Below, piece after piece: positions 23,042-32,024 of a stretch of DNA of 64,000 bases. Made by a program: the position numbers and the translations under genes. Origin of the DNA: an uncultured Ruegeria sp. (GTDB lineage: Bacteria > Pseudomonadota > Alphaproteobacteria > Rhodobacterales > Rhodobacteraceae); assembly GCF_947500045.1 (NCBI RefSeq), contig NZ_CANMQQ010000006.1, positions 1-64,000 of the forward strand, in the 5' to 3' direction. Under the pieces are notes generated by a model, which was given only the letters and a program-made list of their open reading frames with translations, was not told where the DNA came from and searched no databases. Numbering within the stretch: position 1 is the stretch's first letter; each line of letters begins with the position of its first letter.

Positions 23042-23116
<75 letters not shown>

Positions 23117-23176
23117 TCCAAACATATGTAATTCCTACTTAAAGCTAATCGGTGCTGTATGCCGGATGCTTTAGGA

Positions 23177-24214
23177 TCACACAAGCTGATCGGACTCTGC
23201 CCGCGCAGCCTCGGTCAAATTGGCAAGGGCACGCTGTTCCGACATGGGTAATGCGGTATGGCGCGGTGGGAATGCCCGAGGGACACCCGCGCCAAATTCG
23301 AGCCAATTTGAGTTCTTCGGCAACGCAAGAAAGCGCGACAGGCGGGACAGTTCAGTCTTTGGGTCGGCCACGACCGCTTCATAGCGCATGACCAACCTGC
23401 GTTCGTTCGGGATATCCCTGAACTGTTCAAGGCCACTTTTGGTCAGGGCTGACCAGCAGGCGGCGGCGTCTGCGATAGAGGGCTTGGTGTTGAGGATGCG
23501 TGCCATCGGCAATGCCCTCCCCGAGAGTTTTTCCGCCATGGCGATCCACCCGGCGCTGCCGATTTGTGTGCCGGGTTTGAATACATCGATGCCAAAGCGG
23601 GATGCGAGTTTCCAGAACCAGATCACAAACCGGGCCGGTTTGTAGTTCTGCATCGACAGGCTGACATCGCGCCCGTCACGCAAGAGGACGACAAATCTTG
23701 CCTCAGGAAACGCATGGGCGAGCGCAGAAGTTGCAAGCAATGTGCCTCCGGACCGTTCAACCCAGAATTTTCGACCCGTTTTTTCGCCAAGATTGTTGAT
23801 TACGGCCCTCATGTGATCAGCCCGATTCTGCCTTGGCAAATCAGGAACTATGTCGGCCAGATCATCAAAAACCGCATCCGGATCCTCAAAGAGATGTGGC
23901 AGTGTGACTGCAAGGATAGGTGGGCAGTTGAACGGGTCAAATCGGCGCTCATCTACCGTATGATAAAGAAACTCACCCGGGGCCGTCTTCGGGTTGGCCA
24001 ATTGACGCATAAGTGCCGTGGGTTCGGAAAGCTGCTTCCAAAAGGCCTGCCCGCTGATCCCGCCCGGCAGCAACGCGCGCGCGCCTTGAGTCGCAATAAG
24101 TTCGGACAGGCTGAGCACATCCGGATGCTGGCGCAATATGGTGGACATCATGGTCGAACCGCTGCGCGAGGCATTGATTAGGAACGCTCCGTTCATCAAG
24201 ATTCTGGCCGCCAT
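23177..24214 (-). CDS. Sulfotransferase family protein
   Basis: About 345 residues with the two PAPS-binding motifs of sulfotransferases: the 5'-phosphosulfate loop FLINASRSGSTMMSTIL near residue 10 and the 3'-phosphate motif ARFVVLLRDGRDVSLSM near 180. It would transfer sulfate to a hydroxyl or amine of a lipid, sugar or small molecule. It is the last gene of the five-gene operon. Start is uncertain: ATG 24214 (19-base overlap with the upstream gene) or ATG 24196, which makes a TGATG junction. In this operon it probably finishes the product of the synthase and dehydrogenase (inference). Confidence 0.85.
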   Translation of the reverse strand: MAARILMNGAFLINASRSGSTMMSTILRQHPDVLSLSELIATQGARALLPGGISGQAFWKQLSEPTALMRQLANPKTAPGEFLYHTVDERRFDPFNCPPILAVTLPHLFEDPDAVFDDLADIVPDLPRQNRADHMRAVINNLGEKTGRKFWVERSGGTLLATSALAHAFPEARFVVLLRDGRDVSLSMQNYKPARFVIWFWKLASRFGIDVFKPGTQIGSAGWIAMAEKLSGRALPMARILNTKPSIADAAACWSALTKSGLEQFRDIPNERRLVMRYEAVVADPKTELSRLSRFLALPKNSNWLEFGAGVPRAFPPRHTALPMSEQRALANLTEAARAESDQLV

Positions 24215-25458
24215 TTGTTTTCTACCCGCCGAAGCTTGCGATGTGGGTCGGGGCTTAGCTGGGCGACTCTCGCCGATACCACAATGCCTTCGCATCGCGC
24301 GTGGAGCACTCGCTCCAATGCCGCTTTAGGTTTTTGCACTATCTCGGGCTCAAAGTGGTCGGGCAGGATAAGTTCGATCCGGTTTTCTGCGACACGCAGA
24401 ATTCGGAAATCATCGATACTCCGATCAGCATCCAAAACTGCGTTCCGCAGGACATCGGGGGTGAAATAGATCGGCTCTCCGCCCGTATTGAAAATAAAAA
24501 CATCATCCATCCGACCTACGATTTCAGTGACCGCCTGCAAGGGAGAACCGCATGGGCAAGGCCCAGGCCTAAGGCGCAACAGATCATTCATCCGATAACG
24601 TGCCATGATCTGATATCGACGCTGAAAGCAGGACACGATTGGGTTCACCAACCCATCTCCGGCAGGTTCGAATTCAAATTTTACAGCGTCTTCAGCTAGA
24701 TGAATGTTCCCATGTGAGCAGCTGACACCAAACAGCCCCTCGGTGGCCATGTAAATCTGCCCAAGTTGAACCGCAAATTTTGCCTCAATCACGTGACGGT
24801 CCCCCGGATCAAGCGTTTCTGCACCCGCGTATACGATCCGGGGTCTAATCCCGATATCCGCCTCGGCCAAGGCGCGCAGAACGCGCGGTGGGCCAACCAG
24901 ACAGGTCGGATCAAACGCGGCAAGCCGCTTGGACCAGTGTTCCATTCCCTCAGTCAGATCAAAAAAGGTCAATTTCAATCGATTGGCGCGCGCCGCCGTA
25001 TCATAGAGCGCGGATGACTGCGGAAGGATCACCGCCACGCGCTCGGCCTGAAACGGAAACCGGGGCAGCGCCTTGGCCAGTATGGTTCCCAGCCAGCGCA
25101 GCCTTTCCTGCGGGGTGATCATATATAGCGCGCGGTTGCCGCTGGTGCCTGTGCTGGCGCCAACACTGATCTCGCCGTGGGCTTGGGTCGTTTCAAAACA
25201 CCGCCAGCCGGTTGAAGCGGAAACATCGCCCAGATTGAACGCGCCAAAATCAGCCATCTGAATTGTCTTGTCGATGATTGGCAGGGCTTCAAGCCTTGCT
25301 TCGGCAGAGGCATAGTAACGTACCTTTGGCACGTCATGTTCCAGCCAGCGTTGAACAGCTTTATCCTGCCAGCGCATGAAAGCCGCACGCGAAAGGCCTT
25401 TGCGTGTGTGGTACCGCGTGGCAGCAAATGACCGCGCAATATGCCACAGGTCAGTCAT
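24196..25458 (-). CDS. Adenylate-forming enzyme (F390 synthetase/PaaK-like)
   Basis: About 420 residues resembling coenzyme F390 synthetase and phenylacetate-CoA ligase. The ATP loop is ISVGASTGTSGNRALYMITP near residue 103; further motifs are YAGAETLDPGDRHVIE, QIYMATEGLFGVSCSHGNIHL with the conserved T-E, and RYRMNDLLRLRPGPCPCGSPLQ followed by VGRMDDVFIF. It would activate a carboxylate as acyl-AMP and pass it to CoA or another acceptor. ATG 25458 overlaps the preceding gene by 8 bases. Coenzyme F420 chemistry is not expected in this organism, so the family name should not be read as function. Confidence 0.85.
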   Translation of the reverse strand: MTDLWHIARSFAATRYHTRKGLSRAAFMRWQDKAVQRWLEHDVPKVRYYASAEARLEALPIIDKTIQMADFGAFNLGDVSASTGWRCFETTQAHGEISVGASTGTSGNRALYMITPQERLRWLGTILAKALPRFPFQAERVAVILPQSSALYDTAARANRLKLTFFDLTEGMEHWSKRLAAFDPTCLVGPPRVLRALAEADIGIRPRIVYAGAETLDPGDRHVIEAKFAVQLGQIYMATEGLFGVSCSHGNIHLAEDAVKFEFEPAGDGLVNPIVSCFQRRYQIMARYRMNDLLRLRPGPCPCGSPLQAVTEIVGRMDDVFIFNTGGEPIYFTPDVLRNAVLDADRSIDDFRILRVAENRIELILPDHFEPEIVQKPKAALERVLHARCEGIVVSARVAQLSPDPHRKLRRVENKWRPES

Positions 25459-26278
25459 TGGACAGTTGCTCAAGATCAAAGGGTGTCAGCGCGGGATCGT
25501 GGCAAAGCAAAGCCATACCGCCAGCGCGCTGGAATTCTGCCACTTTGCGGCTGGAGCGCAAAGCATCGCGCTTATTCTTTGAGACGATCCGCCCTAATAG
25601 TGGGAGCTGTCGAGGCATTGCCAAAGCCGCCTGTACCCACTGGACATCGCAGGCGTAAAGCAGAACAGGATCAAGCTGCGGGAAACAAAGCCCAAAATGC
25701 CCTTCGGCATGGCCAGGCAGATCGACTGCGATAACCGATCCGTCCTCAAACAGATCGCGCCCGATGCCCAACGTCAAAGGTGCCCGCGCAATGGGCGACC
25801 CAGCGATATCAACTACTCGATGCAACAGATCATGTGGCAGAAGTTCGGGAAAGATGCCGTGACGCAGGTTTGTAAATCCGCCCCTGTTAAGGATGGTCGT
25901 CAGAGTAGAAAGGTCCGTGATAATCTCTGCCTGCGGAAAGCGGCGCAAAGCCGAAACATGATCAGCATGGAAGTGGGTGATAATAATCTTGCTTACATCC
26001 GAGGTCGCAAAACCGAGCTGGTTCAAGGCAACCTCAGTCTGACCATCCTGCGCAAGCACGGGACCGAAGGCGGCAGCATAAGCGCGCAAACCAAAGCTGC
26101 GCGTCCCTTCGAAGATATCCTTGCTATAGCCCGTATCAATCAGAACCGGGCCATGCTGGGGGTGCACCAATATGCCATATCGCACCCGCAGCCCAAGCGT
26201 AGTGCGCCAGCGCCCGTCAGGCTGCACGGCACGCTCGGGCGCAGAGATAAACGCGCTGTTGGCAAAGTGCAGTTTCAC
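25451..26278 (-). CDS. Metallo-beta-lactamase-fold hydrolase
   Basis: A 275-residue MBL-fold protein with VLIDTGYSKDIF near residue 45, the metal motif ITHFHADHVSAL (HxHxDH) near 100, the third histidine in VDLPGHAEGHFGL near 184 and LLYACDVQW near 199. AHL-lactonase-like proteins share this layout, but so do many other hydrolases. It overlaps the epimerase gene by 4 bases upstream and the adenylate-forming gene by 8 bases downstream, so it acts in the same pathway, perhaps hydrolysing an ester, thioester or lactone intermediate. Confidence 0.88.
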   Translation of the reverse strand: MKLHFANSAFISAPERAVQPDGRWRTTLGLRVRYGILVHPQHGPVLIDTGYSKDIFEGTRSFGLRAYAAAFGPVLAQDGQTEVALNQLGFATSDVSKIIITHFHADHVSALRRFPQAEIITDLSTLTTILNRGGFTNLRHGIFPELLPHDLLHRVVDIAGSPIARAPLTLGIGRDLFEDGSVIAVDLPGHAEGHFGLCFPQLDPVLLYACDVQWVQAALAMPRQLPLLGRIVSKNKRDALRSSRKVAEFQRAGGMALLCHDPALTPFDLEQLSND

Positions 26279-27264
26279 ATCATACCCTCAGCGCTAGTTC
26301 TAAACACATCCTCAAGCCCTTCATCAAAAAGAATTTTCGGCTGCCATTGCAAAACTCTGGCGGCTTTTTCGATATTGAGGCTTTGTTCAAATGCCAAAAG
26401 CGCAAGCGCATAGGCCGTTATCTTTGGCTCACCTGTATCAGGAAGCAGGGTGTTTAGTCGTTCAAGTAGTCGCGCAGATGCAAGCGCGGGTTTGATTGGC
26501 AGTGGCCGCCATCTTGGCTGAATGCCCGCACGCGTGCACGCTAATTCTATGATCTGTCTGATGGGCAAAACTTCACCACCGGAAATATTAAACACCTCAC
26601 CTTCCGCCTCAGGACCCGCAATCAAGGCCGCAAACACAGCCTCACAGACATCAGAAACATGCGTCAGGTCGATTTTGGCCCGCCCACCCCGAAACAAAGG
26701 CAGAGGATGCGCCTGCGCCGCTTTCAAAAGTCTGGGCAACAAAGCCGTATCGCCGGGGCCGTAAATCCCGCGAGGGCGCAGGCTGATGGGACCAATCGAT
26801 GGCTCATTCAGCACGATACGCTCGGCCTCTGCCTTGGTGCGCGCATAGTTATTGAACGGCACAGGCAATTGGCAACTTTCCCTGACATCCAACTGATCTT
26901 GTGGTGCGAAATAGACCGAGGGCGAGGAGATATTCACGAAACGACGCACCCGCACCCGTCGGGCAAGTGCCACGATGTTGCGAGTGGCGTCCACATTCGC
27001 TGAGCGGAACGCTAGCAGCGGACCCGAAGGTGCAGAGAGAGCCGCGGCATGAACAACAGCGTCTAGCGCGCCAAACAGCGAGGGTTCCAAAGGTGTAGAC
27101 AGATCGGCAGGCCGAACCTCGAACCCCTGCTCAGCCAATTCCGCACAACGATGCACCGAGCGACCGGTGGCAACTACAGCAAACCCCCGGTCCCGCAGAA
27201 CGCAGCACACCTTGCCACCCAGAAATCCAGTTGCCCCAGTTACCAGCACCCGCACGGCGTTCAC
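26275..27264 (-). CDS. NAD(P)-dependent epimerase/3-beta-HSD-like dehydrogenase
   Basis: A 329-residue extended short-chain dehydrogenase: Rossmann motif VLVTGATGFLGGKV at residue 6, active-site NISSPSVYF and Y-x3-K as YARTKAEAE near 139-143, and RPRGIYGPGD near 160. It resembles 3-beta-hydroxysteroid dehydrogenase and OleD-type reductases that act on 2-alkyl-3-keto acids. Placed directly after a KASIII-like condensing enzyme (4-base overlap), reduction of a beta-keto product is the simplest reading. Confidence 0.88.
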   Translation of the reverse strand: MNAVRVLVTGATGFLGGKVCCVLRDRGFAVVATGRSVHRCAELAEQGFEVRPADLSTPLEPSLFGALDAVVHAAALSAPSGPLLAFRSANVDATRNIVALARRVRVRRFVNISSPSVYFAPQDQLDVRESCQLPVPFNNYARTKAEAERIVLNEPSIGPISLRPRGIYGPGDTALLPRLLKAAQAHPLPLFRGGRAKIDLTHVSDVCEAVFAALIAGPEAEGEVFNISGGEVLPIRQIIELACTRAGIQPRWRPLPIKPALASARLLERLNTLLPDTGEPKITAYALALLAFEQSLNIEKAARVLQWQPKILFDEGLEDVFRTSAEGMM

Positions 27265-28262
27265 ATCCGCAAGGCCAGACCCGAGAATGAAACACCCGCT
27301 GAGGTCCCCAGCATCAGCAAGCGGGTTCCCGGTTCTGCCCGCCCCTCTCGACGCGCGTGGTCCAGCGCTGTCGGAATCGAAGCTGCAATCTGATTACCAA
27401 TATTTGCCACCAGATTAACGATCTTTCCGGCACCAAACCCGGTTTGACGCACCATATGTGTCAGAGCATGCGGGCTGGCCTGATGGGGGACGACAAGATC
27501 AACATCATCCTTTCTCCAACCCGCCTTCTCCAACAACTCATCCACGAAATCAGGGAAATGCTTTATTGTCAGCTTGAACAGATCAGCACCATTCATCTGA
27601 AACAAGGTGTTGCGGGCGAACTCATCAGGATTTTCATGATAGTCAAACCGCGTCCCTCCAGCTGCGATCTGGCATGCTTCGTATTTGGATGGATAACTGC
27701 GCATCAGGCACGCTTGGATACCTTCCTCGTGTCCGCTTGCGCCTCCGATAATTGCAGCGGCGGCTCCGTCTCCAAACAACGCGGCGACTTCGGGCTGCTT
27801 TTCCCAGGGCAGGCCACGTGACGCGATCTCGGACGATACGATCAAAGCATGGCGGCAAACGCCCGCGGCGACCTGCCTGCTGGCAACCTCGAATGCGCTG
27901 ATGAAACTGGTGCAGGTGCTGTTAACATCAAAGGCCGCAGCCTTGCCATCAGCTATCCCAAGCTCTCGCATCACAAGCGGTGCAGTAGAGGGCAGTGTTT
28001 GGAAAGGAACCCCGCTGGCGGAAATAACAAGGTCGATATCATCCCCTGTCAATCCGGCCTGATCCAGTGCACGCCTCGCAGCACCGACCGCCATTTCGAT
28101 CTGATCCATGCCCTGAGCAAAGTGGCGAAATTCAACGCCGGTCTCATGTGCAAGATACCCGCGCTCCAGACCCTCTCTGTCATCAAGGGATTCTGAGGCC
28201 ACCGGCGCACCCGGAAGATAATGACCCGTACCGCGTATTGAGACCTGGATGGTATTGCTCAA
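27261..28262 (-). CDS. 3-oxoacyl-ACP synthase III-like condensing enzyme
   Basis: A 333-residue thiolase-fold ketosynthase III. The catalytic triad is intact: Cys117 in FDVNSTCTSFISAF, His260 in VVPHQASPHAL and Asn290 in NIGNQIAASIP. It would join an acyl thioester to a malonyl-type or second acyl unit. TTG 28262 is preferred because GGAG lies 7 bases upstream; GTG 28289 would add nine residues but has no ribosome site. It heads the five-gene operon, so it is not the housekeeping fabH, which normally lies by plsX. Confidence 0.88.
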   Translation of the reverse strand: MSNTIQVSIRGTGHYLPGAPVASESLDDREGLERGYLAHETGVEFRHFAQGMDQIEMAVGAARRALDQAGLTGDDIDLVISASGVPFQTLPSTAPLVMRELGIADGKAAAFDVNSTCTSFISAFEVASRQVAAGVCRHALIVSSEIASRGLPWEKQPEVAALFGDGAAAAIIGGASGHEEGIQACLMRSYPSKYEACQIAAGGTRFDYHENPDEFARNTLFQMNGADLFKLTIKHFPDFVDELLEKAGWRKDDVDLVVPHQASPHALTHMVRQTGFGAGKIVNLVANIGNQIAASIPTALDHARREGRAEPGTRLLMLGTSAGVSFSGLALRM

Positions 28263-28442
28263 GTGCTTACTCCGATCCAAAATATGCACTCGGAGATAAG
28301 TGTGTTATCAGCTGACGGCAAGGTGGGGATTCCTTACCCCATTGGCAGAGTGCCATGTACAAGATTGATTATGCTTGATATTCGTGCTCGACCGATACCT
28401 TCACCGTGCTTCACTAGACCGGTATCGCGGCTTGAAAGGATG

Positions 28443-28469
28443 CCGGGCGGCCGCATTGCAACCGCCCGG
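28443..28469 (-). terminator. Hairpin after the BCCT transporter gene
   Basis: CCGGGCGG (28443-28450) pairs with CCGCCCGG (28462-28469). It lies 11 bases after the BCCT stop codon and has only a weak T-run on the minus strand, so it may be a processing or partial termination site. Confidence 0.55.
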
Positions 28470-28480
28470 AAAATGCTTGT

Positions 28481-30295
28481 TTACTCGGCCGGTGCAGCGT
28501 GCTTTTGCCGCAAACCGTCGCGATACAGTGCTTTGGCAAGCGCCACGCACATCAGGCCCATGACCACCGTAAAGGGCAACGCACCGATGATCATCGCATT
28601 TCGCAACGCATCCATCGGGTTGTTCTCACCTGCCGCGAGGATCAAGGCCCCGATTACAGCTGTAAGGATCATACCCCAGATGATCTTGTGCTTGTTGCCG
28701 ATGTTCTGATCACCGCCCGACATGATGGTATTCATCACCAGAATGCCCGAGTCTGCCGATGTGACCAGAAATGTCATGATCAGCACCACACACATCACGG
28801 TGATACCAGACAGCAGGCCGCCCGAGATCATCTCTTGCAGAGTAACGAATAACTTGGCGGTATTCGATGCGCCAACGATGGCACCTTCGGCAGTTCCGTT
28901 CAGTTCAAGGTCAATCGCGGTGCCACCCAGAATGGTCATCCAGGCAAAGCAGACCAACGCCGGTGCGAATACGCAACCGATGATGAACTCACGGACCGAG
29001 CGCCCCTTTGAGATGCGCGCCAGAAACAGGCCCACGAAGGGAGAGAACGCGATCCACCAGGCCCAGTAGAACGTGGTCCACCCTGCTTGCCAGCCAAACT
29101 GGCGACCCGGATCACCTGCAGCGTATGCCGAGGCAAGAACGCTTTCCGGCAATGCTGCTGCGTCGCCTTCCAGCCCTGATCTGAACCCGTCGAACGAACC
29201 CCATGGGTTGGTCGCACCGGCGTAAAGAGCGTCGGCGAACGGCGCGGCTTCACTTGGCAGGGCCGCGTCAAACGCTGCTGCTGATTGCGGGTTGAATGCA
29301 CCAAAGCTGAGCGAGACGAAGTGCAAGATGTAGTCAACAAACGCCGTTGCATAGGTGGTCATCGCAAACAGGAATGACCCAAAGACGACGAAGACCAGCA
29401 ACAGGACCAGCGATAGCACCAGGTTCAAGTTCGACAGATACTTAACACCACGACCAACACCCGAGACAGCCGAAACGATCGACAATCCCATGATGACAAT
29501 CAGACCTGCCAGCAATCCAACGGTGCTGGGGGTTGGGACATCACCACTTAGGTCCATGATCCACTGCATGCCAGTGATGGCATAAAGACCGTCGATGAAC
29601 TGCGATATACCAAAGCCGATTGTCACCGATACGCCCAGAATTGTCGCAACAACACCCAGAACGTCGACGACATGACCAAGAAAGCCATTCATCAGCTTGC
29701 CAAACAACGGTGTCAGCGCAGTACGGATCGTCAGCGGCATGTTACGCGTGTAGGCGTAGTAAGCCAGCGACAAACCGGTCACCACATAGATCGCCCAGGC
29801 ATGGAAACCATAGTGCAGGAACGTATAGCGATACCCTGATTGCAACGCGTCTTCGGTATTGCCAATGACCTCACCCGCAATCACGACCGGATTTGACCCC
29901 CACAAACCCAGAGGCTCGGCGGTGGCAAATACCATCAACCCAACGCCCAAACCGGCGCCGAACATCATCGAAAACCAAGAAAAGTCTGAGAACTCGGGCT
30001 TTTCCCCTTCTGTGCCCATAAGACGTTTACCAGTTTGCGGCAGCGCGGCCACAACAAACAGGAAGAAGGCAAAGAAGCCGACGATGATGATGTAGAAGGC
30101 GTTGAAGTCTTCCAGCAGACGCGAGTTCAGGCTTCCCAAAACACCGTTAGCGTTTGCTGGCCAGACCAGTGCCCATATCACAAGTGCAACCATGATTGAC
30201 TTGCTGAGCAAGGCAATCTCGACGCTGTGACCTTCATAGAACCCACCCGTAGATCGCTTGATCTCCAGATCGGTAAAAGGATCCTTCATAGACAT
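28481..30295 (-). CDS. BCCT-family betaine/choline/carnitine-type transporter
   Basis: About 604 residues and twelve membrane segments. The BCCT signature is visible in GWTTFYWAWWIAFSPFVGLFLARISKGRSVREFI near residue 355, and the glycine-rich MMFGAGLGVGLMVFATAEPL lies near 120. Unlike many BCCTs it carries an insert of about 60 residues (AFNPQSAAAFDAALPSEAAPFADALYAGATNPWGSFDGFRSG...) before the signature. ATG 30295 has GGGAGGAA upstream. It transports a quaternary ammonium or sulfonium compound with Na+ or H+. It is 77 bases after the Ldh gene and probably brings in the substrate of the operon. Confidence 0.93.
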   Translation of the reverse strand: MSMKDPFTDLEIKRSTGGFYEGHSVEIALLSKSIMVALVIWALVWPANANGVLGSLNSRLLEDFNAFYIIIVGFFAFFLFVVAALPQTGKRLMGTEGEKPEFSDFSWFSMMFGAGLGVGLMVFATAEPLGLWGSNPVVIAGEVIGNTEDALQSGYRYTFLHYGFHAWAIYVVTGLSLAYYAYTRNMPLTIRTALTPLFGKLMNGFLGHVVDVLGVVATILGVSVTIGFGISQFIDGLYAITGMQWIMDLSGDVPTPSTVGLLAGLIVIMGLSIVSAVSGVGRGVKYLSNLNLVLSLVLLLVFVVFGSFLFAMTTYATAFVDYILHFVSLSFGAFNPQSAAAFDAALPSEAAPFADALYAGATNPWGSFDGFRSGLEGDAAALPESVLASAYAAGDPGRQFGWQAGWTTFYWAWWIAFSPFVGLFLARISKGRSVREFIIGCVFAPALVCFAWMTILGGTAIDLELNGTAEGAIVGASNTAKLFVTLQEMISGGLLSGITVMCVVLIMTFLVTSADSGILVMNTIMSGGDQNIGNKHKIIWGMILTAVIGALILAAGENNPMDALRNAMIIGALPFTVVMGLMCVALAKALYRDGLRQKHAAPAE

Positions 30296-30371
30296 GTGTT
30301 TCCTCCCTGTTCGCACGTGTCCCGATTTCCAGGCATTATTTTCTTGCGCCCCGGAATTGCGCCACAAGGCC

Positions 30372-31382
30372 CTAAGTTATCAGGGCCTCGATCTTGGTCA
30401 GCGTCGCCACGTTCACGGCGACGCCTTCAGAATTTGCAGCCAATCGCTTTGCCCGGCGACCGTCACCGGGTAAGTGTGTGCCCTCCTGAACCCGGATCGC
30501 TTCGACGAGATCGACGATTCCCGTCGAAAACGCGTCATCAGACGTTGCCGAAGCATCGATCGCGATAAAAAATTGGCCTGTTTTCGGAGGGCCGCCCGCC
30601 GTGCCGGAAAAAGGTGACGCGTGAATCCCCAGCGTCGCGCCGGTCAGCGCGGCGGCCAGAACTTCGGTCAGCAATGCCACACCTACGCCCTTGTAGCCAC
30701 CTGATGGTGCCATCGAGCCCTTCAGCCCGACATTCGGATCGGTTGTTGGATTTCCTTCCGCGTCCAGCGCCCAGCCAACCGGGATCGGCTTACCCTCGCG
30801 CGCGTGTTTCATAACCTCGCTTTTCGCGATGGTGCTGGCGCTTTGATCAATTAGAAGGGCGGGCTGCCCATCTGTACCCGGAGCAGCGATTGAGAACGGA
30901 TTGGTTCCCACAACCGGCTTGGAACCACCAGAAGGTGCAATCGAGGCCGGAGCATTGGTAAAGCCCAGACCAACCAGCCCGGCCTGTGCCAGTCGATAAG
31001 TATGGTAACCAAGAACACCACAGTTATAGCTGTTCCGGATCGCCAGTGCGGCGATCCCCTGCGCGCGGGCGGCAGGTATCAAAGCCTCGAACCCGGCATC
31101 TATCGCCGCATGCGCAAAACCTGTGGCCGCGTCGACAGTCACGACGCCGGGGCGCGGTTGCGCCAGAACCGGCTTTGCTTGCCCGTCCACTTTGCCGCAT
31201 TGGACATGCTCGCAATAGATCGGGATATAGGCCAGGCCATGGCTGGCAACTCCATCGGCCTCGGTCGCCGCTGTCGCGATCGCCAAGGGACGCGCGTTTT
31301 CTTCGCGTGTGCCTGCGGCCACCAGCGCCCGAAAGGACAGGTCTTCGATTTCAGCAAGCGAGAGGGTACGGGTTTCGATCAT
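30372..31382 (-). CDS. Ldh2-family NAD(P)-dependent dehydrogenase/reductase
   Basis: A 336-residue member of the malate/L-lactate dehydrogenase family, whose relatives include ureidoglycolate dehydrogenase, 2,3-diketogulonate reductase and the cyclic-imine reductases for delta-1-pyrroline- and piperideine-2-carboxylate. Features are ATEADGVASHGLAYIPIYCEHVQCGKV near residue 38, AIRNSYNCGVLGYHTYRLAQAGLVGLGFTNAPASIAPSGG near 112-150 and KGSMAPSGGYKGVGVALLTEVL near 222. In an operon with a betaine transporter, an imine- or keto-acid-reducing role is attractive but unproven. Confidence 0.88.
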   Translation of the reverse strand: MIETRTLSLAEIEDLSFRALVAAGTREENARPLAIATAATEADGVASHGLAYIPIYCEHVQCGKVDGQAKPVLAQPRPGVVTVDAATGFAHAAIDAGFEALIPAARAQGIAALAIRNSYNCGVLGYHTYRLAQAGLVGLGFTNAPASIAPSGGSKPVVGTNPFSIAAPGTDGQPALLIDQSASTIAKSEVMKHAREGKPIPVGWALDAEGNPTTDPNVGLKGSMAPSGGYKGVGVALLTEVLAAALTGATLGIHASPFSGTAGGPPKTGQFFIAIDASATSDDAFSTGIVDLVEAIRVQEGTHLPGDGRRAKRLAANSEGVAVNVATLTKIEALIT

Positions 31383-31394
31383 ATTGGTCTTCTT

Positions 31395-32024
31395 TCAGTC
31401 ATTGTCGGAAAGCCCGGCCCCTGCGCCAAGCAAGCGGGATGCTTCTGTCGCGGGGGCGTAGGTACGATGGGCAAATTGGTTGAGTATCTTCCACGCAGCC
31501 GGATCAGGCGTTGCACGGGTTTGCAGCGAACACGGATCAGTCAGGCCATCGCCCAACGCGACCTCGACATGGTCCGCAAAAGCCGGACATTCATTTCTCA
31601 GTGCCAGCCGCACCCCATCAGTCGCAGCGGAAAAATCTCCGGATGTGACGGTGATGACCGCTTGCAGACTGCGCGCGGCGTTGGCGGCGAATGGCAGCAG
31701 CAGCATTGGCACGGCAACCTCTCTGATGCGAATTGGACCGGATCGCAGAAAGTCGGAACAATCCGAAAGCATCGCCCCGGCCATCAACGGGCACAGGTCT
31801 TTGTTGCCGGTCCAATCGCTTTGCAATCCCGCTGGTAGGTGATCTTCCATTGAAGCCGCAAACCCATGCTCCAGCACACGTGACAGGACCACCGCGCCAT
31901 CAAGACCCTGGGTACAAAGCCAGCGCGTCGCCTTCGCGGTGTCTTCTGCAACTCCCCAAGTATAGCCTGCGCCACGCGCTGCGCGTTTGGCGGTGGCTTC
32001 AACCTCATTAAGAGAGAAACTCAT
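31395..32024 (-). CDS. DUF3726-like protein
   Basis: About 209 residues, beginning MSFSLNEVEATAKRAARGAGYTWGVAEDTAKATRWLC, which I recall as the DUF3726 start. It contains AVPMLLLPFAANAARSLQAVITVTSGDF near residue 105 and several Cys but no catalytic signature. Function unknown. The ATG overlaps the stop of the 561-residue gene as ATGA, so they are translated together. Confidence 0.75.
   Translation of the reverse strand: MSFSLNEVEATAKRAARGAGYTWGVAEDTAKATRWLCTQGLDGAVVLSRVLEHGFAASMEDHLPAGLQSDWTGNKDLCPLMAGAMLSDCSDFLRSGPIRIREVAVPMLLLPFAANAARSLQAVITVTSGDFSAATDGVRLALRNECPAFADHVEVALGDGLTDPCSLQTRATPDPAAWKILNQFAHRTYAPATEASRLLGAGAGLSDND

Follow-up and report, generated by a model that had tools for sequence, protein, structure and literature searches.

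A four-gene biosynthetic core with a replaceable tail, here a sulfotransferase, in an uncultured Ruegeria sp.

Five overlapping genes lie on the minus strand at 23177-28262 of the window, which is the 64,000 nucleotide stretch of contig NZ_CANMQQ010000006.1 from an uncultured Ruegeria sp. (assembly GCF_947500045.1) that was analysed here. They encode a condensing enzyme, a reductase, a hydrolase, an adenylate-forming enzyme and a sulfotransferase, and the question raised by this locus is whether these five genes form one pathway and what such a pathway would make. The original prediction, made from the sequence alone, regarded all five as an undescribed biosynthetic operon. The five open reading frames, their order, their overlaps and their catalytic residues are all confirmed, and the family assignments of the five proteins hold against Pfam and NCBIfam models. 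Comparison with other genomes shows, however, that the unit is a core of four genes plus a replaceable tail, with the sulfotransferase as the tail here; the five-gene set originally proposed as the unit is not one. The genes are as follows.

27261..28262, minus strand: condensing enzyme of the FabH clade (β-ketoacyl synthase, KAS), with a TTG start at 28262 and an alternative GTG at 28289
26275..27264, minus strand: extended NAD(P)-dependent reductase of the short-chain dehydrogenase/reductase (SDR) type, with OleD as best NCBIfam model, under cut-off; motif GATGFLG and residues S113, Y140 and K144
25451..26278, minus strand: metallo-β-lactamase (MBL) fold hydrolase, lactonase type; presumed metal ligands H102, H104, D106, H107, H190, D211 and H260
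24196..25458, minus strand: F390/PaaK-like adenylate-forming enzyme, a relative of TIGR02304; motifs and residues STGTSG, ATE, D292, GR-DD and K408
23177..24196, minus strand: sulfotransferase (PF13469), the tail gene, with a likely start at ATG 24196, or else ATG 24214; motifs SRSGST and LLRDGRDVSLSM

The KAS and SDR genes overlap by 4 bases, the SDR and MBL genes by 4 and the MBL and F390-like genes by 8. The overlap between the F390-like and sulfotransferase genes is 19 bases from ATG 24214 or 1 base (TGATG) from ATG 24196, the latter start being favoured by the N-termini of several homologues. The overlaps may mean that the proteins are made in fixed ratio, as the original prediction proposed. 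That the operon is biosynthetic, with overlapping genes in a conserved order, is supported.

The core and its tails

All four core genes were matched together in 104 of 112 distinct loci mapped by tblastn, five duplicates (L124, L125, L128, L132 and L133) having been removed before the count. The 104 comprise 77 contigs of relatives, 15 plasmid or Escherichia coli loci, 11 further genomes and the window. The relatives' contigs were taken from the best 80 of 589 and are therefore a sample of the nearest relatives; loci with short flanks (L001-L022) were excluded from the neighbourhood counts, and two loci (L129 and L136) are counted as full cores despite weak or displaced SDR matches. Three of the eight remaining loci are cut by contig ends (L044, L081 and L082), and in the other five the F390-like gene is outside such an operon (L035, L037, L135, L137 and L138). 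Two of these five are Pseudomonas megaplasmids, where F390-like genes without the full core (6902-8200 in L035, 6109-8233 in L037) have an ATP-grasp match nearby.

The hosts of the core are mostly Alphaproteobacteria, with others in the Beta- and Gammaproteobacteria, the Bacilli and the Fusobacteria. The order KAS-SDR-MBL-F390 is annotated in Shinella, Rhizobium, Roseateles, Ketogulonicigenium, Paracoccus, Pseudomonas sp. FeN3W and Paraburkholderia. In Paenibacillus and Pontibacillus (Bacillota) the same order has an ATP-grasp gene inserted, and Fusobacterium (L034) has the four genes as SDR-MBL-F390-KAS. The recurrence of the core order in many plasmids and chromosomes of the Pseudomonadota shows that the operon is more than a chance arrangement. 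Conservation of gene order is found for the core, and the sulfotransferase is replaced by other tails elsewhere. The MBL and F390-like genes are on opposite strands in 8 of the 102 loci used for alignments and trees, these being the 104 full-core loci without L027 (broken genes) and L066 (contig end). The distance matrices of the core proteins correlate with Pearson coefficients of 0.78-0.90, with shared ancestry uncontrolled.

Within Ruegeria, a strong match to the F390-like family is present in 5 of 37 genomes sampled, with weak matches in two more. Four of the five core-bearing Ruegeria have an operonic sulfotransferase and the fifth has a Rieske/ATP-grasp/GNAT-like tail. Across the family sample the F390-like match, at E 1e-30, is found in 18 of 394 genomes and is beside other core genes in 15, in two of which (G125 and G408) the SDR match is weak or displaced. 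Searched against plasmids, the F390-like protein matched 60 records, 26 of them over 80% of the query, and 16 regions were examined. In E. coli the core is flanked by narI and a tRNA-Tyr pair, and genes for PAP2, fatty-acid hydroxylase and desaturase proteins come after it. Core-region DNA is present at 80% coverage or more in 672 of 5426 complete E. coli genomes, a megablast count of DNA rather than of intact genes, made with a query of the core and a small part of its upstream flank. One such E. coli islet (L031, 6234-13115) carries the core with PAP2, a hydroxylase that is weakly OlsE-like and a desaturase; a plasmid copy of the islet (L027) is decayed.

Five types of tail are recognised, of which the sulfotransferase is one. 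Among the 104 full-core loci, 64 have at least two of the GNAT-like, Rieske and ATP-grasp genes (2 of these also with DUF3419), 12 have DUF3419, 9 a sulfotransferase, 9 a glycosyltransferase, 3 the PAP2/hydroxylase/desaturase set, 2 ATP-grasp only and 7 no recognised tail. Tail families were assigned from one representative per tail, and the glycosyltransferase matches of two loci (L126 and L129) are weak, at 39% and 26%. Across these loci the sulfotransferase, glycosyltransferase, DUF3419 and PAP2/hydroxylase/desaturase tails are mutually exclusive, and the sulfotransferase shares no locus with the GNAT-like/Rieske/ATP-grasp set. The GNAT-like tail protein owes its name to the public annotation. 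Mapping placed it in 71 loci, counting duplicates, although the one member tested (L023, 9269-10366) matches no Pfam or NCBIfam family.

When the six tail states, 'none' included, are placed on a core tree (FastTree, concatenated core, 102 rows, 1349 columns), at least 19 changes are needed, where the minimum possible is 5. Shuffled tail labels need 36.5 changes on average and none of 200 shuffles was as low as 19. Without the 'none' rows there are 13 changes, and 11 if the two weak glycosyltransferase rows are also left out. The changes are thus few compared with shuffled labels, yet still at least 11 to 19, which suggests that the tail is inherited along with the core but swapped from time to time. 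The sulfotransferase alone needs 3 changes and is found in two places on the tree. In Ruegeria (the window, L040, L120 and L121) it is operonic, and in Paracoccus and Ketogulonicigenium (L026, L036, L038, L122 and L123) it is divergent and adjoins a TetR gene. Sulfotransferases of the two groups are 36-43% identical to each other, and the F390-like proteins of three aligned members of the Paracoccus/Ketogulonicigenium group have 30-31% identity to that of the window.

The window sulfotransferase scores 68.5 bits on PF13469 against a cut-off of 27. It carries P-loop-like and 3' motifs (SRSGST and RDGRDVSLSM), which we take to be the sites for 3'-phosphoadenosine 5'-phosphosulfate (PAPS), and PAPS supply is indicated by an ApsK over cut-off in all 20 genomes searched, its own and 19 others. 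A profile built from nine core-adjacent sulfotransferases matches, at E 1e-30, 7 of the 394 family genomes, 5 of which have the core. Three of the seven (G000, G118 and G148) contributed to the profile for adjoining a core, and a fair count therefore excludes them. This leaves 4 held-out carriers, 2 of them with the core, to compare with 387 non-carriers, of which 10 have it (one-sided Fisher p 0.005; the p of 7.8e-7 obtained with the three included is biased). In both held-out carriers with the core the sulfotransferase is unlinked to it: in G281 it is about 18 kb from the KAS gene of a core with a GNAT-like/Rieske/ATP-grasp tail, and in G425 it is on a different contig from a core without an adjacent tail. 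In a further set of 20 hand-picked genomes the sulfotransferase is found in 6 of 6 known carriers and in none of the 14 others, one of which (G011) has the core with another tail. The sulfotransferase shows some tendency to accompany the core even where the two are not adjacent.

The four core enzymes

The condensing enzyme is a KASIII protein (PF08541/PF08545). Its Cys117/His260/Asn290 triad is intact, as first described, and is retained in 102 of 102 aligned homologues. It scores 199.8 bits on the fabH model TIGR00747, for which the cut-off is 292.1, and 225 and 200 bits on two general FabH models, against 119 on PRK09258, which we take to be OleA-like. A redundant fabH can be rejected, because a separate fabH on another contig of the genome scores 412.8 bits, over cut-off, and in this the original prediction was right. 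A third KASIII-like gene in the genome (G000:C1:355182-356012) scores 156.7 bits on the fabH model.

The column that holds the catalytic glutamate of OleA and PpyS has Ile in 58 and Leu in 44 of the 102 rows, and on this ground an OleA-type synthase is rejected. The FabH residue equivalent to this glutamate is presumably F87. PMC4578411 gives Val for MxnB and CorB at this position (Glu105 in PpyS) and has both within the FabH clade. According to PMC5724707, MxnB joins two acyl chains and uses carrier-protein substrates 12-fold faster than N-acetylcysteamine (NAC) thioesters. In a Foldseek search of the PDB with the AlphaFold model of the window enzyme (pLDDT 92.2), ranks 1-3 are MxnB (two chains) and CorB, with FabH proteins next. 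By sequence the PDB matches are MxnB, then FabH 4ryb, then CorB. Residues W32, R36 and R151 of FabH act in CoA binding and correspond to Y36, E40 and P157 of the window enzyme. Pro occupies the R151 column in 94 of 102 rows and is also the residue of MxnB and CorB there; the W32 and R36 columns show wide variation.

The roles of the invariant residues in the other three enzymes are assumed from their families. The SDR scores 172.4 and 127.5 bits on two OleD models with a cut-off of 580, its E. coli homologue scoring 151.7 and 146.2 on two such models, and S113, Y140 and K144 are invariant in all 102 rows. The MBL hydrolase has the PF00753 fold. Its best NCBIfam model is the N-acyl homoserine lactone (AHL) lactonase, at 60.8 bits against a cut-off of 390, and H102, H104, D106, H107, H190, D211 and H260 (HXHXDH plus distal H, D and H) are invariant in 102/102. 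With its AlphaFold model (pLDDT 96.2), the first 20 Foldseek ranks against the PDB are lactonases, AhlX, 4-pyridoxolactonase and AiiA among them. The adenylate-forming enzyme has 240.5 bits on TIGR02304, just under the cut-off of 251.9, and S102, G104-G107, E240, D292, D319 and K408 do not vary across the 102 rows. Its best models are TIGR02304 and PaaK-like ones, and its profile matches phenylacetate-CoA ligases and AjiA1. The part of PMC5501837 that reports Acinetobacter expression data names a coenzyme F390 synthetase, and no such operon is mentioned in that part.

What the operon may make

The preferred reading, to which we give a probability of about one half, is that the core builds a hydrophobic scaffold bearing at least one hydroxyl and that the tail adds a polar group to it, here a PAPS-dependent sulfate, giving an anionic sulfated lipid-like product. 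The KAS would join two thioester-bound acyl units, probably on a carrier protein rather than CoA, and the SDR would turn the resulting β-ketone into a β-hydroxyl. The MBL hydrolase would open a lactone or cut the thioester to a free acid, and the F390/PaaK-like enzyme would adenylate the freed acid, or a feeder acid, for formation of an ester, amide or thioester. The sulfotransferase would then sulfate the hydroxyl. The substrates, the order of the steps and the lipid nature of the product are inferred, and the adenylating and MBL steps are those placed with the least certainty. In favour of the scheme are the togetherness and correlated divergence of the core genes, their invariant catalytic residues, the exchange of tails, the association of the sulfotransferase with the core, the PAPS supply, the match of the KAS to MxnB and CorB, the lactonase ranks of the MBL hydrolase and the lipid-type tails of E. 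coli and Burkholderia.

The other tails (glycosyltransferase, BtaA-like DUF3419 and Rieske/ATP-grasp/GNAT-like) would decorate the same kind of scaffold. Sulfotransferases and glycosyltransferases transfer to hydroxyl groups; DUF3419 is the family of BtaA, an enzyme that puts a homoserine group on a lipid hydroxyl; and the tails in E. coli and Burkholderia (fatty-acid hydroxylase, desaturase and PAP2) are lipid-type enzymes. All the tails are thus akin to enzymes working on hydroxyl groups or on lipids, and a core scaffold with a hydroxyl, which the SDR would supply, fits every one of them.

Several observations weigh against this reading. Two sulfotransferase carriers, G374 and G183, have no core match; theirs are the weakest sulfotransferase matches (264.6 and 158.2 bits). 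The sulfotransferase profile matches protein-tyrosine sulfotransferases at 2e-10, the CurM sulfotransferase at 1.4e-6 and that of a polyketide synthase, 4gox, at 5.8e-5, so that by profile comparison the protein-tyrosine enzymes are nearer than any lipid or polyketide sulfotransferase. Seven full-core loci have no recognised tail; L066 is at a contig end and Fuscovulum has an unlinked sulfotransferase, which leaves five unexplained. Genome G281, with an unlinked sulfotransferase as well as a Rieske/ATP-grasp/GNAT-like tail, indicates that one genome may have more than one kind of tail. Alphaproteobacteria dominate the sample, which includes 23 close rows of the Mesorhizobium clade. The KAS is 33-34% identical to MxnB and up to 31% to FabH, with TM-scores that are alike, and of 39 family-conserved residues it has 31 in common with MxnB and 29 with FabH. 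No member of the core family has a known product.

Four other readings were weighed. The first is an Ole-like pathway that would end in an olefin or a β-lactone: head-to-head condensation, reduction and β-lactone formation by the adenylating enzyme, then opening of the lactone or decarboxylation, with the sulfotransferase as an addition. The operon has all four types of activity, the MBL hydrolase has a lactonase-like fold and the best NCBIfam model of the SDR is OleD. Its score is nevertheless far under the OleD cut-off, the adenylating enzyme matches F390/PaaK models, the KAS scores better on general FabH models than on PRK09258 and has Ile or Leu instead of the OleA/PpyS glutamate in every row, and tails that supply head groups have no obvious place on a hydrocarbon. 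This pathway is thus unlikely. The comparison with oleABCD in the original prediction is weakened by the missing glutamate, the low OleD score and a hydrolase of the metal-dependent lactonase type. Taken as a whole, that prediction is partly supported: it stands for a biosynthetic operon, a conserved order and a synthase other than fabH, and not for the five-gene unit.

The second reading, which we consider quite unlikely, is a diffusible signal, with the KAS making a pyrone- or lactone-like compound, the MBL lactonase tuning or degrading it and the tails varying it. The MBL hydrolase is closest to lactonases, a TetR gene is upstream of the KAS gene in some loci, and PMC5724707 and PMC4578411 describe an α-pyrone from MxnB and photopyrone signals from PpyS. 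However, a Pfam scan of ten window neighbours found no LuxR-type regulator, the adenylating enzyme keeps its catalytic residues in every row, for a step that MxnB and PpyS, as described, do not need, and the hydroxylase, desaturase and PAP2 tails suggest lipids.

Ordinary elongation is the third, in which the PaaK-like enzyme activates an acid, the KAS extends it with malonyl units and the tails decorate a small aryl or alkyl metabolite rather than a membrane lipid. The near-equal likeness of the KAS to MxnB and FabH makes malonyl-type elongation possible, and the FabH clade membership of the KAS, its hydrophobic residue at the glutamate position, the profile matches of the adenylating enzyme to phenylacetate-CoA ligases and AjiA1, and the resemblance of the tested glycosyltransferase tail to macrolide-type glycosyltransferases would all agree with it. 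It is made improbable by the lipid-type tails of E. coli and Burkholderia and by the lack of any polyketide synthase or carrier-protein family among the ten window neighbours (Pfam, with small open reading frames unscanned).

The least probable of the four is a CurM/OLS-type reaction, in which an alkene would arise by decarboxylative elimination, set off by the MBL hydrolase once the sulfotransferase has sulfated a β-hydroxyacyl thioester; the β-hydroxyl could come from the SDR, the MBL protein is a hydrolase and the sulfotransferase profile reaches CurM and 4gox, but the MBL gene is kept in the core without an adjoining sulfotransferase in 95 of 104 full-core loci, its fold is lactonase-like and protein-tyrosine sulfotransferases score better. 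A defence island was also tried and rejected, PADLOC matching none of the five proteins at E 1e-5.

The preferred reading, a hydroxylated scaffold with an added polar group, can be taken a step further, more tentatively. The core may make a hydroxylated, possibly two-chain fused scaffold of an undescribed and widespread lipid class in which the head group is swapped by the tail gene. The swapped groups might then include sulfate, sugar, homoserine or betaine-like and amino-acid-like groups, as well as chain hydroxylation and desaturation, in hosts from marine Ruegeria to Fusobacterium. The core is found in at least three phyla. If the proposal is true, bacteria make an entire class of lipids, or lipid-like products, that has yet to be named, with its core DNA in about one eighth of complete E. 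coli genomes, and TIGR02304 would gain a role, its name giving none. The core is apparently uncharacterised as well as widespread: no description of it, and no published pathway with this gene set, was found among the matches listed in searches aimed at it in the open-licence literature (bioRxiv excluded), as the original prediction had supposed, although an unlisted or subscription paper may exist.

Setting of the operon and comparison with known systems

Two further features border the operon.

28263..28480, minus strand: intergenic region upstream of the KAS gene, the presumed location of the promoter
23042..23116, plus strand: tRNA-Thr, with its 3' end toward the operon, outside the pathway

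A consensus scan found no σ70-like site in 28263..28480. By Pfam, the ten neighbours are histidinol dehydrogenase, a GNAT protein, DUF2948, an EPSP-synthase-family protein read as murA, BCCT, Ldh_2, DUF3726, one protein without a match, a peptidase and a LysR regulator. Those upstream of the operon include the BCCT transporter (28481-30367) and a malate/L-lactate-type dehydrogenase (30372-31382), for which the best NCBIfam model is L-sulfolactate dehydrogenase, at 178 bits with a cut-off of 500. A BCCT gene with 31% identity is also near the sulfotransferase in Paracoccus sp. MA (L036), perhaps by coincidence.

The operon abuts the tRNA-Thr gene, and the murA/tRNA-Thr stretch is present in 54 of 54 Ruegeria genomes searched. 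Among the best 30 of these 54, the window included, contiguous homology with all 29 other loci ends at 23116-23127. The 3' side of tRNA-Thr is therefore the edge of a variable region in Ruegeria. In G014 (L145) the sequence that comes after the tRNA matches window positions 30385-31799, and in G003, G010 and G013 the sulfotransferase operon and the murA/tRNA-Thr locus are on different contigs. The edge of homology at the tRNA and the location of the operon elsewhere in relatives fit gain and loss at a variable site. A search of the window for a second copy of the tRNA 3' end found none, and nothing there places the operon on an integrative element ending at the tRNA, variable though the site is in the genus. 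Several other Ruegeria (G464, G466, G467, G457 and G005, for example; L144-L172) have short copies of the tRNA 3' end about 4-44 kb away on the same contig, as integrative elements leave.

Of the known systems, oleABCD has in common with the operon the activities of condensing, reducing, activating and hydrolysing, and OleD is the nearest of the NCBIfam models to the SDR. OleB is an α/β hydrolase. The window differs in a KAS without the OleA glutamate, an MBL hydrolase, an adenylating enzyme of the PaaK/F390 type and replaceable tails. With the CurM/OLS sulfotransferase domains the likeness is that the sulfotransferase profile reaches CurM; the window protein is stand-alone, is swapped for other tails elsewhere and is matched better by protein-tyrosine sulfotransferases. 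The AHL lactonases (AhlX, AiiA and AttM) and 4-pyridoxolactonase have the same MBL fold and metal ligands, but the window hydrolase is about 14-21% identical to the lactonases of the first 20 structural ranks, is far under the listed model cut-offs and is encoded inside a biosynthetic core.

Like PpyS and PqsD, the KAS is a stand-alone enzyme of the KASIII fold, a kind that makes small acyl-derived products. PpyS needs Glu105, according to PMC4578411, a residue that the KAS does not have, and PqsD ranks 34 and lower for the KAS structure. MxnB and CorB, of myxopyronin and corallopyronin synthesis, have the Cys-His-Asn triad, a hydrophobic residue instead of the glutamate and Pro at the R151 position, as does the KAS. 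The triad and a hydrophobic residue are also present in FabH, and this feature therefore does not separate MxnB and CorB from FabH. The window system differs from theirs in its partner genes, in an identity of only 33-34% and in having no polyketide synthase among the ten neighbours scanned. The adenylate-forming enzyme, finally, is related to TIGR02304, the 'F390 synthetase-related protein' (aden_form_hyp), a model name that states no function. The window protein is slightly under the cut-off of this model, on which the E. coli member, encoded in the same core, scores 748.5 bits.

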